A DNA stretch of 64,000 bases from Microbulbifer sp. YPW16 (lineage in GTDB: Bacteria; Pseudomonadota; Gammaproteobacteria; Pseudomonadales; Cellvibrionaceae). The position numbers were made by a program, and so were the translations under genes. The stretch spans positions 1,720,501 to 1,784,500 of the forward strand of contig NZ_CP089928.1 in NCBI RefSeq assembly GCF_021290385.1. Direction: 5' to 3'. Below the pieces are notes generated by a model, which made no database searches, had not been told where the DNA came from, and worked only from the letters and a program-made list of their open reading frames with translations. Positions 17,740-46,472 of the stretch are shown here, one piece after another; within the stretch, counting starts at the first letter, position 1, and each line of letters begins with the position of its first letter.

Positions 17740-18213
17740 ATGGATATGCCAATAGCTCACTCACGAAAAGGACATCGTTCACTACGCCGGGGCCGGGTTT
17801 CCATGCCCGGGCAGGTATACCTAGTAACCACCTGCACTCACCAGCGCCTACCAATATTCAAAGATTTCACATTGGCACGGCAGGCCTGCACATCTTTTCA
17901 GGACCCTTCATTACTGGGCGATGCCAGGATGCTCGCCTGGGTATTGATGCCCGATCATGTGCACTGGCTGATACAGCTTGGAAATTCCTTTGACTTGAGT
18001 GAACTTATCAAGCGTCTCAAATCTTCCAGTGCATACCAGGTTAACCAGTGTCTGCATCAAGAAGCGATTTGGGAGCGCGCCTTCCATGACCGCGCACTAC
18101 GAAAAGAAGAAGGGGTTATCGAAGCGGCACGGTATGTGATTGCCAATCCTTTGCGCGCGGGGCTCGTACAAAACGTCGGGGAATATCCGTTCTGGAATTC
18201 TGCCTGGTTATAA
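17740..18213 (+). CDS. REP-associated tyrosine transposase (RAYT)
   Basis: A 157-residue member of the Y1 single-strand transposase group (TnpA_REP). The HuH motif is in LMPDHVHWLIQLG (His ~73 and 75), after VYLVTTCTHQRLPIF. The catalytic Tyr is probably in EAARYVIANPLRAGLV, which is the family's C-terminal signature. RAYTs are single-copy housekeeping-like enzymes that act on REP hairpins, and here REPs flank the gene at 17704 and 18224-18289. It carries no IS ends of its own. Confidence 0.93.
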   Translation: MDMPIAHSRKGHRSLRRGRVSMPGQVYLVTTCTHQRLPIFKDFTLARQACTSFQDPSLLGDARMLAWVLMPDHVHWLIQLGNSFDLSELIKRLKSSSAYQVNQCLHQEAIWERAFHDRALRKEEGVIEAARYVIANPLRAGLVQNVGEYPFWNSAWL

Positions 18214-18223
18214 CCCGGGAATT

Positions 18224-18289
18224 GTCGCGGCCAGCGGCCGCTCCTACATGATCGTGTTAAGTGCCATAGGAGCGGCCGCTGGCCGCGAT
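18224..18289. repeat. Inverted REP pair (BIME) right of RAYT
   Basis: One REP in inverted orientation (18224-18247, ending GGCCGCTCCTAC) and one direct (18267-18289, starting TAGGAGCGGCC) enclose 19 bases. The two can fold into a long cruciform, the BIME arrangement RAYTs are thought to act on. Confidence 0.85.
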
Positions 18290-18296
18290 TGTTATC

Positions 18297-18836
18297 CTAC
18301 CACTTCATCATCGGCAATGGCCGCAGCGGATGCCGGGGTAGCCAGCGCAGGGCGCGCCTGCCCAGGCTTTTGTGGAAACCCGCATTGGGGAAAGCGCGAC
18401 GCACCTCTTCCACCAGACCGGCGTCCAGCCCGAAACGGACCAGGCCGCAGGAAAAATCCACCAGGTCACCACGGCGGAACAGTTCCACCAGCGGTGCGTA
18501 CTCGCCGCGATACCGGCGCAGTTTGTGGTGCTCGCTGATCATCAGGCGCACCTCGTCGCACCAGCCTTCCCGACCGTTGTGCTTCAGGTATTGCATCGCC
18601 GGGGTAATAGAGGGCGGGAGATAGTCGACGGTATCATCGACCCAGATACCGATATCGTGAAAGGCGCCGGCAATCACCAGCTTCTGCCGCTCTTCCTCGC
18701 TGCATTCACGCAGTGCAAAGCAGAAATGCAGCATGCGGTAGACGTGATTACGGTAGCCCGGGTATTCCGGGCCAATACATTCCCGCCAGTCAGCCAGTAT
18801 CTCTTCCAGCAGCGGGATCTTCTCTTCGATTTCCAT
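18297..18836 (-). CDS. HD-domain phosphohydrolase-like protein
   Basis: A 179-residue soluble protein with an HD-superfamily metal site: a His in GYRNHVYRM (~30), the HD pair in AGAFHDIGIW (~59-60), and a downstream His-His-Lys (ISEHHKLRRY, ~102). HD proteins hydrolyse phosphate esters such as nucleotides. The substrate cannot be told here, and no regulatory or synthetase domain is attached. The stop is close to the REP pair, on the opposite strand from the RAYT. Confidence 0.75.
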   Translation of the reverse strand: MEIEEKIPLLEEILADWRECIGPEYPGYRNHVYRMLHFCFALRECSEEERQKLVIAGAFHDIGIWVDDTVDYLPPSITPAMQYLKHNGREGWCDEVRLMISEHHKLRRYRGEYAPLVELFRRGDLVDFSCGLVRFGLDAGLVEEVRRAFPNAGFHKSLGRRALRWLPRHPLRPLPMMKW

Positions 18837-39420: not shown

Positions 39421-40458
39421 TCACCCACCCCAGAACAACAATGCCACCCCGCTGAAATAGCATGCCAGTACCGCAATCCCTTCAAAACCGATATTTCCTG
39501 ATCCGTGGGCCTGGCGGCGCAGCAGCCCCATCATAATAATCGCACTGAGGACAATGTTCATGGCCAGCCAGAAGGTCTGCTGCTGGTTGATGGTGGTGTA
39601 GATAGAGCCCTGGCGGAAGGCAATATCGGAGCCGACCAGAAAAAGTACGTCGAAGGAGTTCCCACCAATAATATTGCCGACAGCCAATGTGACAGCGCCG
39701 CGCCTGGCTGCAGTGAGGGCAATAACCAGCTCCGGAAGGGAGGTGGCGACGGCGGTAAACAGACTGCCGACAATTGTCTGCGACAGCCCTGACTCCCGCG
39801 CGATGACAATGCCGGCGTGGCTGGTGACCCAGCCGGCCGCGGCCACCACCATGGCCAGCGCTGCGAAGGTCAACCAGAGCTGCCTGAGATCAACAGGTGC
39901 TGACTCACGCTCAGTTGGTTCGCGCTGGGTCAGGGCGGTCTGGCGTGGTTGCCACATGGGGTAGTCTCCGGCGGCAGACAACAGGCGAACGCCGCCAATA
40001 TAGGCTGCTAATAGCAGTGGAGAAAACAGGTCGACATGACCGATGGTATAACCGGGACCGGCGCTGGCGAGTATCGCCAGGCCCAGCATAAGCATGACCA
40101 GCACGGTCTGAAACAGGTTTTGTTCGGAGGCCGCGGCGTGTTCCAGGTTGGCGCGCCGGTAGACTATGTCGGCGAATACAAGAAAGGTAGTCTGCGCGGC
40201 GATGCCACCGATGGCGTTACTGACAGCCAGCTCCCCCGCCCCCTGCCAGGCCGCATTTATCGAGGTGATGACTCCAGCGACGGAAGTGATCATCCCGAGA
40301 AACAGGGTGCCCATGATGGCCTGGCCCATTCCTGTACACTGGGCGAGGATTTCGGCGCGGTGCGTCAACTTCACGCCACACACGCCGATAACTGTAGCTG
40401 CTGTACAGAGCAATATAATACTGGTGGTCAGGGACCAGTTAGCGGGATCTAGGGTCAC
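39421..40458 (-). CDS. Sodium/calcium exchanger-family (CaCA) antiporter
   Basis: A 345-residue membrane protein with ten to eleven helices in two inverted halves. The two alpha-repeats are visible: AISNAIGGIAAQTTFLV-type at ~80-100 (here NAIGGIAAQTTFLVFAD) and GNIIGGNSFDVLFLVGSD at ~260-280. These hold the ion-binding residues in the NCX/CaCA family, though the first repeat is Gln-Thr rather than Asn-Ser-like. Ion specificity is therefore uncertain. The upstream side is the broken end of a cassette array. Confidence 0.82.
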   Translation of the reverse strand: MTLDPANWSLTTSIILLCTAATVIGVCGVKLTHRAEILAQCTGMGQAIMGTLFLGMITSVAGVITSINAAWQGAGELAVSNAIGGIAAQTTFLVFADIVYRRANLEHAAASEQNLFQTVLVMLMLGLAILASAGPGYTIGHVDLFSPLLLAAYIGGVRLLSAAGDYPMWQPRQTALTQREPTERESAPVDLRQLWLTFAALAMVVAAAGWVTSHAGIVIARESGLSQTIVGSLFTAVATSLPELVIALTAARRGAVTLAVGNIIGGNSFDVLFLVGSDIAFRQGSIYTTINQQQTFWLAMNIVLSAIIMMGLLRRQAHGSGNIGFEGIAVLACYFSGVALLFWGG

Positions 40459-40513
40459 GAAATCACCTCGGCCGGCTCACTAGAAGCCGCAGGTAGGTAG
40501 TTTCAAAATGGCT

Positions 40514-40541
40514 GTTTGGCACCACAGTCGCTTGTTAGGCG
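40514..40541 (-). repeat. attC half-site, truncated end of cassette array
   Basis: On the minus strand GCCTAACAAG is a perfect RYYYAAC core with the usual AAG after it. It comes just after the stop of the gene at 40552-41181, as an attC should, but the matching GTTRRRY core does not follow, so the array is cut here. Confidence 0.55.
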
Positions 40542-40551
40542 GTACTGCGAA

Positions 40552-41181
40552 CTAAATCTCCGGATTTGGAGTTGGGTCAGGTATCTCAATGTTATTAGAA
40601 TAGGCGCAAGGCTCTAGCAAAACTCCATTAACCTTCAGCTGAGCAACCACTGCAGCATGTACTTTTGTGCCAAAAACCCCATGATAGTGGTGGGTGCTTA
40701 TATCCCAATCACGCTCACTTGTCCCCAGCTTTTCTGGCTCACTCCCAGTACAAGAAAATACTTCAAAGAAAAATGCATTACCTCCATAACCATGAGTAAG
40801 GCGGATTACTACAGCTCCTAGAGCTCCCCCACTATATGGAAAAACGCTTGAATCAAATTCGATATGGACTGAAGAAGTACTCTGGGGCTGGACGGCTCCA
40901 GATGTATCGCCAGGCCTCCATTCCTTAGATTGACCAGAGTGGTAAACATTGCTCGGATTATCAAGACTAATCCCCGGGGGAAGTTCATTTGATATAAATT
41001 TAGTTTGCACCACCTCTCCAGCATCATCCTTTAAAACAAGTAAGAGAACATTACCGACTTGATCAAAATAATAACAACTAGCCCTACAGTTCTCCTTTGA
41101 CTCACGTGTAAAAAGACTGTCTGCATACAAATAACTAGAAAATATAGTGACTACTGAAAATACAATTAACTTTATTGTCAC
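40552..41181 (-). CDS. Cassette gene: secreted protein of unknown function
   Basis: A 209-residue protein with a signal peptide (IKLIVFSVVTIFSSYLYA) and a Cys pair ENCRASCYYF at the start of the mature part. The rest is beta-rich (VHIEFDSSVFPYSGGALGAVVIRL) and ends in a Pro/Asn tail. No family recognised. It is markedly AT-richer than the genes outside the array. It is the last cassette, with a 225-base leader between the preceding attC and its ATG that probably holds its own promoter. Confidence 0.65.
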   Translation of the reverse strand: MTIKLIVFSVVTIFSSYLYADSLFTRESKENCRASCYYFDQVGNVLLLVLKDDAGEVVQTKFISNELPPGISLDNPSNVYHSGQSKEWRPGDTSGAVQPQSTSSVHIEFDSSVFPYSGGALGAVVIRLTHGYGGNAFFFEVFSCTGSEPEKLGTSERDWDISTHHYHGVFGTKVHAAVVAQLKVNGVLLEPCAYSNNIEIPDPTPNPEI

Positions 41182-41408
41182 GATATCTTTCCTTTGATCG
41201 GTTTAATTTTCCATGCTATATGTACTCACAGCGCCTGCGGAGATTACTGCAGATAATAGACACACACGTTTCGAACATTCTTCATACAACCACAAATGCA
41301 GACTGCAGCAACAAGACGAGCAAAACTAAATCTTCAAGTAGGTTAAAATTTTGACGCTGAAATCTCGTATTTGGCGCGAGTACTTTCGTACTTTTTATCA
41401 CTTGGCGC

Positions 41409-41470
41409 CCTAACGACATAGGCAACGATCGTAGCGCTTGCGCTGCGTATCGTTCGGCGTCTTGTTATAT
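41409..41470 (-). repeat. attC-like site 4
   Basis: On the minus strand it begins ATATAACAAGACG and ends GTCGTTAGGG. The inner arms pair: AACGAT..G.AGCGC on each side of AAGC. The outer cores TAAC and GTTA pair too. This is attC geometry, about 62 bp. Confidence 0.7.
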
Positions 41471-41792
41471 TTTGCCGCAGCGAACATTATGAGCTCGCCC
41501 CTGGCACCTAGTAAATCCCCACTGCGAAAGCGAGGCCCGTCAAACTGTGTGGAGGTGAAGTTACTACTGGAAGGGATAGTAGATGCGGCAAGACGCGTTC
41601 CCGTGAGGTAAGGCTTACGTCCGCAACCAATCGCGCTTGCGAGTGGAAGCAACGCTTCACGGTAACATGAAAAATTTTTGACGGTCACCTTCCTTTTAGA
41701 AGCAATTCCACTGTCCATTTCTATGATCACCGCCGGCGGTGGCGGCGTGCACTGTATGTGTCAGCCGCTGGCAAGAAAGCCCGCGTAACCCG

Positions 41793-41845
41793 CTGCATAA
41801 ACGAAAAAAGGTCGGCCCCGGGCCGACCTTTTTCCGTTTATGCAG
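41793..41845. terminator. Strong bidirectional terminator
   Basis: A near-perfect inverted repeat with arms of about 25 bp (CTGCATAAACG... to ...CGTTTATGCAG), with GGTCGGCC stems next to T5/T6 runs on both strands. It ends the cytochrome c transcript on the minus strand. Confidence 0.85.
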
Positions 41846-41882
41846 AGCGCTCTCTCGTTCCGCCCGGTTCAGTAGAGCCGAT

Positions 41883-42272
41883 TCAGCGCGCCGCCTTGAT
41901 TTCCCCTTCACTCACCAGCAACACCTCATCACCCCAGGTATTGGTGATAAACGCGATGATCGCCGAGATTTCGCGGTCCGTCAGAAACTCCAGCGCCGGC
42001 ATCAGATCCTCTTCACCGCCATTGCGGCGGGGTGCCGAGCGGCCGTGCAACAGCGTGTCAATGAGCAGTGGCTTGTTTGCCAGCAACGCGGGATCGCGCA
42101 GGGATGGGTACAGCGCTTCCTCACCATAGCCGTCTATCTTGTGACACTTCACACAATTGTCGGCAAATGTAAGGGCACCAAACCCAATGAGGTGACGGGT
42201 CTCCTGCTCTGAAGCACCTGCCCCCAGCGAGAACGTTGCCAATAATGTTGCGATGGATAGTGTGCGTTTCAT
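41883..42272 (-). CDS. Secreted c-type cytochrome (monohaem)
   Basis: A 129-residue protein: signal peptide (RTLSIATLLATFSLGAGA), one haem-binding CVKCH in TFADNCVKCHKIDGYGEEALYPSLRDP, and a likely axial Met in EEDLMPALEFLTDREISAIIAFI. It carries electrons in the periplasm; the partner is not visible. Start at 42272 because CAGGA lies at the right distance. It lies inside the stretch bounded by attC-like sites yet has near-genomic GC, so it is either an unusual cassette or a chromosomal insert in the array. Confidence 0.82.
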   Translation of the reverse strand: MKRTLSIATLLATFSLGAGASEQETRHLIGFGALTFADNCVKCHKIDGYGEEALYPSLRDPALLANKPLLIDTLLHGRSAPRRNGGEEDLMPALEFLTDREISAIIAFITNTWGDEVLLVSEGEIKAAR

Positions 42273-42306
42273 ACAGTGCATCCTGTTGCCAGTCAATTGA
42301 GCCAGA

Positions 42307-42543
42307 TTATTTTCCCTGTGCGCGCAGCCAGCCTGAGCCCGCAATACCACCTGCAGCACAAACCAGAATGATAACCAGGGGCGTCAGTGTCACCAGTACC
42401 AGCACACCGACACCAAAGCCGCGCATCGGCAAAAGCAGCAGCAACAAAATGCCGGCGGACATCAGCGACAGCAGAAAACCACGGTTAATCCAGCTATTGC
42501 GCCATGGTAGTAGGAAGATTAGCCCACAGATTCCGCCCCACAC
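42307..42543 (-). CDS. Small membrane protein
   Basis: A 78-residue, very hydrophobic protein with two or three helices: GGICGLIFLLPW, FLLSLMSAGILLLLLLPM, GVGVLVLVTLTPLVIILVCAAGGIAG. The start is uncertain: GTG at 42543 is the only standard start, but the same frame stays open upstream with protein-like sequence and no ATG. It precedes the cytochrome by 34 bases and may be co-transcribed. No function recognised. Confidence 0.5.
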   Translation of the reverse strand: MWGGICGLIFLLPWRNSWINRGFLLSLMSAGILLLLLLPMRGFGVGVLVLVTLTPLVIILVCAAGGIAGSGWLRAQGK

Positions 42544-42648
42544 CCCGCTGGTAGATATAGGAATTTTAATTTTTACTTTGTTACCGTCTTCATATTCAGT
42601 ATTTTATTTCTACTAAGATCCAAAATCCAGTCCCTCCGAGGCGGACAG

Positions 42649-42714
42649 AATCTAACGACCTAATAACCAGCAGCCGAAGCGCAGCGTAGGTTTGTCCCTA
42701 GCAGCACCTTGCTA
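42649..42714 (-). repeat. Degenerate attC-like site 3
   Basis: On the minus strand it starts ATAGCAAGG (one base off TAACAAGG), right after the stop of the gene at 42719, and ends GGTCGTTAGAT, a perfect GTTRRRY core. The inner arms pair poorly, so it may be decayed. Confidence 0.45.
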
Positions 42715-42718
42715 TGCC

Positions 42719-43234
42719 TTAATAGCCTTCGAACCACGGCACGTCCTTAATAGGGGGAATTTCTTCATTTACCGGCTCTAATGCAACTATGTAATGCGGT
42801 ATTGTTTGATTAAACACGTCGTCAGACTCAGCTTGCTCAGTTTTAAAGCACTGAATTACTGTAACTCTATAGCTGCCTGGCGCCACCTCAATAACCCGCT
42901 CGACTTCGTGTGCCTCCGGAAGAGAAACATCTTCGAACTGAGCTGCCATCGTTAAGCTATCGTATGTTGTGATAAGTAATTTTCCATTTGTTTTAAGGCC
43001 GGAGAAGAATGATCGAACCCCTACCTCATTAGATGAACCAAAAACCAATTTAACAATCCAATTTCCGTAGCTGCAGCCCCAAGAGATTAGAGAGCCACAT
43101 TTATTTTGATCAATGAAGTGCTTTTTTAATCCTTCAATAGCCCAATCCTCAGATACGAAGCCGACATAGCTTTCTGGATCAAGAATTGCTAAACAACCAT
43201 AATCGGCTGGAATGGTAAGTTTTTTCTCAGTCAT
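42719..43234 (-). CDS. Cassette gene: soluble protein of unknown function
   Basis: A 171-residue soluble, acidic protein (KKLTIPADYGCLAILDPESYVGF, PPIKDVPWFEGY end). I start at the ATG at 43234 (MTEKKL); the longer frame begins inside an attC site. Reads like an immunity- or DUF-type small protein common in cassettes, but no family is recognised. About 45% GC by eye, below the flanks. The stop is 5-6 bases from a decayed attC. Confidence 0.7.
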   Translation of the reverse strand: MTEKKLTIPADYGCLAILDPESYVGFVSEDWAIEGLKKHFIDQNKCGSLISWGCSYGNWIVKLVFGSSNEVGVRSFFSGLKTNGKLLITTYDSLTMAAQFEDVSLPEAHEVERVIEVAPGSYRVTVIQCFKTEQAESDDVFNQTIPHYIVALEPVNEEIPPIKDVPWFEGY

Positions 43235-43249
43235 CGATTCCACGTGAGG

Positions 43250-43331
43250 TATAACGCCGCGGTTTGGGGCTGGCATGGAGCGCCAGCGGAATGGCAGTCC
43301 CAGCCGAAGGCGACAACACCGCCTTGTTAAC
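43250..43331 (-). repeat. attC site 2
   Basis: On the minus strand it runs from TTAACAAGGCGGTG to GCGGCGTTATAC. Outer TAAC/GTTA and inner GCGGT/ACCGC arms pair, with a further hairpin (GGCTGG...CCAGCC) inside. The stop of the gene at 43327-43659 is the TAA of its first core. Confidence 0.8.
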
Positions 43332-43659
43332 TGTTGCTGAACGCACGGAACAGCCTTTTCTTATTGGTTTCTGATATTTCACAGAAATATACCCCCATTG
43401 GTATGAAGCCCAAATATAAAGGGTATATTCGTAGCTTCAACAGCCCCGGCACATATGGCTTGAAGGCCATCTTCAATTTTAGGCCGCCACGCTTTAGCAA
43501 CAGCACCTCACCCGTGTTTTTTAGTACTTTGATCTCGGACACTGGGGCATCCAAAAAGAAGTTAATTTGTTGCCCGAGTATTGGCGATATCTTGTAGTAA
43601 GTTTCTCCATTCTTCTCATAGAACTTCGAGTTAAGTGATCCTAGTGCGATTTCTTCCAT
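43327..43659 (-). CDS. Cassette gene: PH-like small protein of unknown function
   Basis: A 110-residue protein rich in beta-strand pattern (YYKISPILGQQINFFLDAPVSEIKVLKNTGEVLLLKRG), with no signal peptide or membrane helix. No family recognised. Its ATG is 9-10 bases after the core of attC site 1 and its TAA is shared with attC site 2, so gene and sites form a minimal integron cassette. Confidence 0.65.
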   Translation of the reverse strand: MEEIALGSLNSKFYEKNGETYYKISPILGQQINFFLDAPVSEIKVLKNTGEVLLLKRGGLKLKMAFKPYVPGLLKLRIYPLYLGFIPMGVYFCEISETNKKRLFRAFSNS

Positions 43660-43667
43660 ATTTTTAC

Positions 43668-43728
43668 AGTTAACGCCGCCAACACCGAGCGAGCGTTAGC
43701 GAGTCCGCGTGCTTGGCCTTGTTATGTG
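43668..43728 (-). repeat. attC site 1
   Basis: On the minus strand it runs ATAACAAGGCCAAGCACG to GTGTTGGCGGCGTTAACT. TAAC/GTTA and GCCAA/TTGGC pair, and one extra G interrupts the left arm, as the strand-determining unpaired base does in true attC sites. The centre is an imperfect GCTCGC/GCGAGC hairpin. Confidence 0.82.
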
Positions 43729-44021
43729 TTTTGTACAAAATGAGCTCGCAACCTTACGTGCGCCTCTTCAAACAATAGGGTAAAGCGAACAGACTCTCTA
43801 CTACCCGAAACCAACTTGTAGTTGTTTGCCACTAGCTTGCCAAAATGCTCATCGAAATTACCAACCTCTCTGCTTTGATATTCCTTCTGAAACGCTTTGA
43901 AGAATTCTTCGTGTTCGCTAAACCTCTCTAAAGGCGAAAACTCGCAGATGTGCCATGGCTGATCAGATTCAAAAACCTTAAAGCTAGCAATTCGATTTCC
44001 TTTGTGCTCGAGATATATCAT
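43722..44021 (-). CDS. Cassette gene: small soluble protein of unknown function
   Basis: A 99-residue protein (EHKGNRIASFKVFESDQPWHICEFSPLERFSEHEEFFKAFQKE, VRFTLLFEEAHVRLRAHF) with no signal or membrane segment. No family recognised; it has the charged, mixed alpha/beta look of many cassette proteins. Its stop TAA is the first core of attC site 1, and a GTTATGT core lies 24 bases before its start. Confidence 0.65.
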   Translation of the reverse strand: MIYLEHKGNRIASFKVFESDQPWHICEFSPLERFSEHEEFFKAFQKEYQSREVGNFDEHFGKLVANNYKLVSGSRESVRFTLLFEEAHVRLRAHFVQNT

Positions 44022-44075
44022 TTATAGATCGCTCTTAGCTCACAGACACATAACAGTTTATTAATAGGCGTGGCC

Positions 44076-44139
44076 ATATCTGGGCATATGGTTACATCTG
44101 ACCATCAATGCCTATATCTGGACATATATGCCCAGATAT
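44076..44139. repeat. Three copies of ATATCTGGRCATAT
   Basis: ATATCTGGGCATAT (44076-44089), ATATCTGGACATAT (44114-44127) and the inverse ATATGCCCAGATAT (44126-44139) lie between the array and the parC terminator. The last two overlap head to head into one large palindrome. This could be an operator cluster or a recombination-site remnant. Confidence 0.7.
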
Positions 44140-44165
44140 AACCATCCCCTGTATCCACATGCAAA

Positions 44166-44193
44166 AAAACAGGCGCCATTTGGCGCCTGTTTT
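44166..44193. terminator. parC terminator
   Basis: Perfect 13-bp arms AAAACAGGCGCCA and TGGCGCCTGTTTT with a TT loop. On the minus strand the stem runs into T7, so it ends the parC transcript. Confidence 0.9.
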
Positions 44194-44225
44194 GAGTTGC
44201 TGTTGTCATTCCCGGCGGAGCGGGC

Positions 44226-46472
<2,247 letters not shown>

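Follow-up and report, generated by a model that had tools for sequence, protein, structure and literature searches.

Can a cassette array that has no integrase gene beside it still take up and lose genes, or is it only what an integron has left behind? The question is raised by an array beside parC in Microbulbifer sp. YPW16, within a stretch of 64,000 nucleotides (the window, W; C1:1720501-1784500) of a genome that consists of a single contig of 4,194,587 bp. The array runs on the minus strand from 44145 to 40518: a repeat leader of 95 bp and an attI-like core are followed by five cassette units, and a truncated attC site closes it. It carries two strong and two degenerate attC sites and no neighbouring integron integrase gene (intI). 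By definition (at least two attC sites, no neighbouring intI), it is a cluster of attC sites lacking integron-integrases (CALIN), the label that a preliminary description of this DNA had given it. It is probable (about 0.75) that this CALIN is headed by a working attI-like site, at which cassettes are exchanged by an integron integrase (IntI) made elsewhere. Cassettes would be inserted at and lost from a GTTA core at 44049-44062, and the IntI would be supplied from elsewhere on the chromosome, where intact intI genes lie at 0.02 and 2.08 Mb. The newer cassettes, with intact attC sites, would then stand near the head, and the older ones, with decayed attC sites, toward the truncated end.

The head of the array and its attC sites

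The attI-like core (AATAAACTGTTATG; 44049..44062, minus strand) lies between the hairpin behind parC and cassette 1, in the place that the preliminary description had assigned to parC itself. Its 14 bp recur without a mismatch in front of cassette 1 in the intI-A integron of the same genome, and the window head thus has, like the intI-side heads, a GTTA core where cassette 1 starts. To the left of the core the heads differ: beside intI the consensus ends in GCTTTTGAAT, whereas the window has a repeat leader of the type called beta (44051..44145, minus strand), with about four imperfect palindromes around CAGATAT at a spacing of about 23-25 bp. This leader matches the head of cassette locus c5 at 82% over 95 bp and that of c2 at 76% over 85 bp, in different contexts (c1 to c7 denote cassette loci, L numbers loci and G numbers genomes, the source genome being G000). 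With a leader common to other heads and a core common to intI-A, the site is not the ordinary chromosomal sequence unrelated to attI that an attG site would be.

Three leader classes were assigned by eye. Alpha leaders have GACGCGTC palindromes and a TTGACTT-type promoter, gamma leaders have AGCCnnnGGCTT, and beta leaders, carried by the window, c2 and c5, have the repeated CAGATAT palindromes. An alignment of 14 beta-type leaders was made. The sequence CCAGATATRRSCA has six copies in the genome, five of them at three array heads, and none in the control; the copy at 2,023,073 is not a head: it falls within a permease-like gene, and 14 kb of DNA there gave no attC match. A promoter scan of the window leader listed no consensus promoter. 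The CAGATAT repeats may serve as accessory binding sites.

The attC sites were located with two covariance models. The first was trained on 7 attC sites adjoining the two intI genes of the genome, with the window sites excluded; these were matches of a loose hand-written attC scan beside intI, which replaced a scan with a strict R box that had missed true sites. One scan match (A5, L015 2469-2568) was dropped from the training set, as it failed to align with the rest and looked doubtful. The second model was built on 80 first-model matches from 26 loci in other Microbulbifer genomes, among them one truncated by a locus end and one lying opposite a better match on the other strand. Of the four attC-like sites and one half-site of the preliminary description, two are strong matches to both models. 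These are attC 1 (43666..43729, minus strand; first model 36.1 bits, E 1.1e-7 in the 64-kb window; second model 39.7 bits, E 3.1e-9) and attC 2 (43247..43334, minus strand; 34.7 bits, E 2.8e-7 in the 64-kb window; second model 34.7 bits, E 1e-7), so that the covariance search which that description had proposed as a check returned two significant matches at sites it had named. The third and last match of the first model in the 64-kb window scored 11.2 bits (E 1), and the second model gave no third match there up to E 10. In both strong sites all 4+5+3 R/L pairs are formed, and the unpaired extra G noted earlier in site 1 is borne out by pair-by-pair reading and recurs in site 2.

The other sites are degenerate. 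An unfiltered search of 40400-44300 gave 15 matches, headed by the four sites of the preliminary description, with attC 4 (41406..41472, minus strand; 12.7 bits, E 0.024 over 3.9 kb, filters off) third and attC 3 (42648..42719, minus strand; 9.9 bits, E 0.17 over 3.9 kb, filters off) fourth, both weak. In each of them 5/8 L-box pairs are broken; the R boxes still pair, with one G-T pair in site 3, where TAGC also replaces TAAC. The half-site at the end of the array (40518..40540, minus strand) is, by eye, a truncated left half (TAACAAG CGACT G TGG) whose right half is missing. That the attC sites are intact close to the head and decayed at a distance is in keeping with insertion at the head, and the cassettes would accordingly become older with distance from it, an age order read from the state of their sites.

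As a separate observation, attC 2 (43247-43334) and an attC of array c7 (L117 445-532) agree at 96.5% over 85 bp, but the DNA to the left and right of them is unlike, which may mean that one attC has served different genes. A long inverted repeat at window 18208-18297 (GTCGCGGCCAGCGGCCGCTCCTA) was a false attC candidate of the hand-written scan, and is passed over by both attC models. Rfam gave no match over the window at gathering score; 11 low-threshold Rfam matches on 40400-44300 were set aside, as they belong to unrelated families and all fall under their gathering scores.

The integrase that the array itself lacks is encoded elsewhere in the genome. The search for intI that the preliminary description had suggested found two intact integron integrase genes, intI-A and intI-B, at C1:20785-21726 (424.7 bits) and C1:2076920-2077849 (402.3 bits; TIGR02249 cut-off 265), and these two matches over the cut-off lie 0.3 and 1.7 Mb from the window. 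Neither TIGR02249 nor tblastn with IntI-A matched anything in the 64-kb window, in agreement with the earlier statement that no integrase is present; the array is thus not a complete integron, in which intI stands beside attI and the cassettes. Nine cassette loci were found in the genome, two with intI and seven without, and each starts at an attI-like core. This number is a lower bound, because only 150 of 488 candidates were scored in the genome-wide attC model search, which did not recover the sites of the window itself. By sequence, then, at least seven cassette loci of the genome, the window array among them, are headed by an attI-like core and have no intI. All 7 genomic copies of RAATWAACTGTTA are heads of cassette loci (2 intI integrons and 5 intI-less), against none when the pattern was reversed as a control; the core takes the form TAATAAACTGTTA at the window and AATAAAACTGTTATA at c6. 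Three places picked up by a core scan allowing up to 3 mismatches (window 3736, L017 917 and L050 9935) are not heads, and at the intI-less locus c4 only one attC match was obtained, apart from its reverse-strand echo.

Heads without intI across Microbulbifer and their cassettes

The arrangement recurs in other Microbulbifer. In a set of 48 genomes, source genome included, 42 have an intI match over the cut-off (72 matches in all). The core pattern has 129 matches in the set (control, 15), of which 20 lie within 1.5 kb of intI; since the search pattern is strict, the genus-wide head counts are lower bounds. All 39 pattern matches without nearby intI in 13 other single-contig genomes were fetched. 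An attI-type leader was recognised by eye at 33 of them and was lacking at 6, and attC matches (E up to 0.1, same strand, within about 4.5 kb) followed 27 of the 33 leader-bearing heads and none of the six leaderless ones; the second attC model added nothing at the 12 loci without attC matches. The consensus of the 33 intI-less heads and that of 17 intI-adjacent heads are the same over the last 19 bases (gCtTTTGAATaAACTGTTA), 13 of which are fixed by the search pattern. A recognisable core was present at about three quarters of 31 intI loci examined. A tblastn search with IntI-A (E 0.01), which recovered intI in 5/5 control loci, found nothing in the 39 loci, in the six other intI-less clusters of the source genome, in the window or in four parC loci.

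Cassettes appear to have moved between arrays with and without intI. The intI-less array c1 (head at C1:1041220), which lies 1.0 Mb from the intI-A array, shares with it two cassettes, one of 607 bp (100% identity) and one of 473 bp (99.8%). The shared cassettes are cut between the G and the TTA of GTTA and stand in swapped order, and the two leaders are only 68% alike over 263 bp; site-specific movement would therefore explain the sharing, and copying of the whole region would not. Two intI-less arrays of G010 have a 496-bp cassette in common (99.8%), and in G053 a stretch of 397 bp with no obvious same-strand gene recurs in three arrays, one with intI and two without (97.7-98.0%). Apparent sharing between L274 and L276 and between L271 and L272 was dropped, as the common DNA reads by eye as transposase genes.

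At orthologous places, the cassettes change from species to species while the head remains. Fifteen pairs of intI-less heads with matching flanks were compared, position 0 being the first base of AATAAACTGTTA. In 7 of the 15 pairs, at four loci, homology runs through the flank and the leader and ends at +11 to +14 of the core, after which the cassettes differ. Three of these pairs are at parC: the window and G011 (95%, to +11), the window and G060 (87%, to +12), and G011 and G060 (to +11). The others are c5 and L244 of G040 (79%, to +14), and, with L251 of G010, L267 of G051 (89%, to +11) and L277 of G003 (89%, to +11), together with a second locus of G010 and G051 (L254/L265; 90%, to +11). 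With attC model matches on the one hand and cassette turnover between relatives on the other, neither of the two outcomes (no attC hits, or one gene order conserved in many relatives) that the preliminary description had named as counting against it was seen.

At the parC locus itself, the site is empty in 20 of 47 relatives, with marR within about 330 bp of parC (measured to the start of the tblastn match) and no attC match. Heads beside parC were found in G000, G011, G060, G012, G040 and G021, the loci of G011 and G021 being cut by contig ends; the other 22 relatives have longer parC gaps, other neighbours or contig ends. The six species with a parC head form one clade on a FastTree tree of ParC (support values not printed), nested among lineages with the empty site. 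The leader is of the beta type in G000, G011 and G060 and of other types in G012, G040 and G021. These data suggest that an intI-less array has stood at parC since the ancestor of the head-bearing species, and that its first cassettes kept changing. IntI-A or IntI-B would be the enzyme acting on the window's own head, and such use of a beta head in trans is proposed from turnover rather than from an observed shared cassette.

A wider proposal, put forward tentatively and at somewhat less than even odds, is that Microbulbifer possesses a distributed integron, in which few integrases act in trans on attI-headed arrays across the chromosome. In this proposal the CAGATAT leader would be a separate type of docking site, so far met only at intI-less heads, that keeps arrays alive as species diverge.

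Competing origins and related systems

Several observations weigh against a head served in trans. The flank upstream of c1 (L112, C1:1033000-1046000) matches the intI locus of 15 relatives, and c1 has therefore probably lost its intI, yet it shares recently moved cassettes with the intI-A array; weaker likeness of this kind was seen in the flanks of L255 (46-48% over 47-48 aa, beside intI in three relatives) and of L243 and L250 (28-30%, away from intI). The evidence from shared cassettes moreover concerns the alpha-type head of c1, not the beta-type head of the window, and the 31 intI loci examined (of 72 intI matches) showed no beta leader. Among the orthologous pairs, flank and leader of G020/G018 align only as separate pieces, ending at +12, and homology between G051 and G003 goes on to +381, so that the first cassette is held in common. 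In six pairs (c5/G050, G040/G050, c6/G052, c4/G052, G015/G050 and window/G012) homology is lost before the leader, so that even orthologous places can have different leaders; the G011 core is itself altered. Finally, neither model found an attC after six of the 33 heads with a leader, the leaders having been sorted by eye and not blind to the attC matches.

A stop of homology at the core would also follow if intI had formerly been nearby, and the first alternative is that a complete integron beside parC lost its intI and left cassettes that now only decay. The decayed distal attC sites of the window fit such a relic, and c1 shows that an array of the same genome can stand where 15 relatives have intI. 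Nevertheless, this origin is unlikely for the window, as no intI stands between parC and the head in six species of one clade, G000, G011 and G060 are homologous up to the core and then differ in their first cassette, and tblastn with IntI-A detected no remnant in the window or in four other parC loci (G021 lying outside this test).

More doubtful still is an off-target origin, by which an IntI placed cassettes in an ordinary chromosomal site (attG) next to parC that resembles attI in the recombination core alone. In its favour are described attG insertions (in the consulted part of PMC12444791) and the empty parC-marR sites of the 20 relatives. Against it, the likeness spans the 95-bp leader that heads in other contexts also have, and genus-wide pattern matches beside parC occur only in G012 and G021, both of which have a head there. 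Chance attC-like hairpins with no link to integrons are already contradicted: sites 3 and 4 are weak, and unconstrained single-strand DNA folds of the four sites (z-scores -0.19, -1.17, 0.85 and -0.50; judged to be no test of attC sites) are not clearly better than shuffles, but a model blind to the window sites gave two matches at E 2.8e-7 or better in 64 kb, and 342 kb of the parC loci of 27 relatives gave 1 match up to E 1 (15.6 bits, E 0.33).

A head served in trans would set the array apart from systems already described. In the available text of a review, CALINs are traced to off-target insertion, loss of intI or rearrangement (PMC8618304), and the corresponding part of the IntegronFinder 2.0 paper recalls the proposal that they are degraded (PMC9024848). 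In Xanthomonas, CALINs are said to be mobilisable in trans and to occur at conserved loci (PMC12444791, in part), and in Shewanella they are reported, in the portion available, from genomes with and without intI (PMC9229058). The window array resembles these CALINs in its attC-bounded cassettes, its lack of a neighbouring intI and the proposed mobility in trans; unlike arrays explained as degraded, off-target or rearranged (PMC9024848, PMC8618304), it has an attI-like head and turnover on the insertion side. The Xanthomonas CALINs away from ilvD come closest in being intI-less arrays at conserved places in genomes that may keep an intI elsewhere, but the excerpted account mentions no attI head and describes activity as progressively lost (PMC12444791). 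With sedentary chromosomal integrons the array has in common an attI-type core, attC sites, cassettes of mostly unknown function and insertion at the head, whereas here intI is far off on the chromosome and two intI genes stand against at least nine heads. In the delta-attI gene cassettes of mobile integrons an attI away from intI likewise takes part in recombination; that site, however, belongs to a cassette inside one integron, as far as the excerpt goes (PMC12901181), and here the site heads separate arrays.

Among the best literature matches, in their titles and abstract openings (preprints and subscription papers lying outside), there was no account of intI-less arrays each headed by a cassette-receiving attI-type site. 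According to the accessible text of PMC9024848, attI sites outside class 1 integrons are poorly described and are not detected by IntegronFinder, and headed arrays would consequently be filed as plain CALINs. The locus is of interest because intI-less arrays, for which decay or accident has been the proposed origin, here possess their own attachment sites and seem to acquire cassettes. By means of the core pattern and the orthologous heads one can test which integrase serves which head, and whether a single integrase can supply many chromosomal places through heads at many loci.

Cassette genes, flanking genes and an insertion element

The genes of the five cassette units all lie on the minus strand. 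Cassettes 1 (43722..44021, 99 aa) and 2 (43327..43659, 110 aa) encode proteins of no family, and their stop codons, at 43722 and 43327, fall inside the TAAC core of the following attC, as had been described. The gene of cassette 3 (42719..43234) encodes 171 aa from the ATG after attC 2, or 185 aa from an ATG inside it, and that of cassette 5 (40552..41181) 209 aa with, by eye, a signal-peptide-like start. Cassette 4 (41411..42660) contains a small membrane protein gene (42307-42543), a cytochrome c gene (41883-42269; PF00034, 35.6 bits), a hairpin (I1, 41793-41845) and an ORF-like element (41410-41730). The small, AT-rich character ascribed earlier to all the genes does not extend to 41.9-42.5 kb, where the cytochrome c and membrane protein genes form a GC-rich two-gene block. 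The cassette 4 block is 90% identical to DNA inside the parC-side array of G012, beginning where a G012 attC match ends. Relatives of the ORF-like element occur in c5 and in arrays of G012, G023 and G008; instead of coding for a protein, it may be a conserved element carried by cassettes.

The new defence or stress functions suggested for the cassettes found no support in PADLOC, PHROG, Pfam, NCBIfam or structure models. PADLOC gave no match for 5 cassette proteins at E up to 1 and PHROG none for 4 at E up to 0.01; in Pfam and NCBIfam no window cassette protein scored above cut-off, except the cytochrome c in Pfam. The structure models are of low confidence, with a mean pLDDT of 58.6 for cassette 1 and 38.3 for cassette 3. 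The cassette 3 protein has one distant tblastn match among PLSDB plasmids, on a Variovorax plasmid (31% over 85% of the protein).

The upstream neighbour and ancestral left flank of the array is parC (44226..46472, minus strand), which encodes subunit A of topoisomerase IV (748 aa); the name rests on similarity, not on a family search. The protein was matched in 48/48 Microbulbifer genomes, source genome counted, and is 99% identical in Microbulbifer sediminum TT37, the nearest named relative found. The terminator-like hairpin 3' of parC (44166..44193, no strand assigned) is a 13-bp perfect inverted repeat (I6) with arms 2 nt apart, and is absent from the output of a simple terminator scan. 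On the right, the array is followed by a Na+/Ca2+ exchanger-like gene (39421..40458, minus strand; PF01699, 94 bits), which had no match at E 1e-40 in the 37 relatives searched (G060 not among them) and occupies the same place in G060.

An element of ~1.8 kb was found in six arrays of the source genome (L014/L015, L017, L113, L114, L115 and L117) and was rejected as a cassette, as it is an IS1182-type element encoding a 518-aa transposase (266.8 bits, just below the family cut-off of 270). Its copies are 98.7-100% identical between pairs. The copy in the intI-A array sits just after the GTT of an attC R' box, which suggests that the element targets attC sites.

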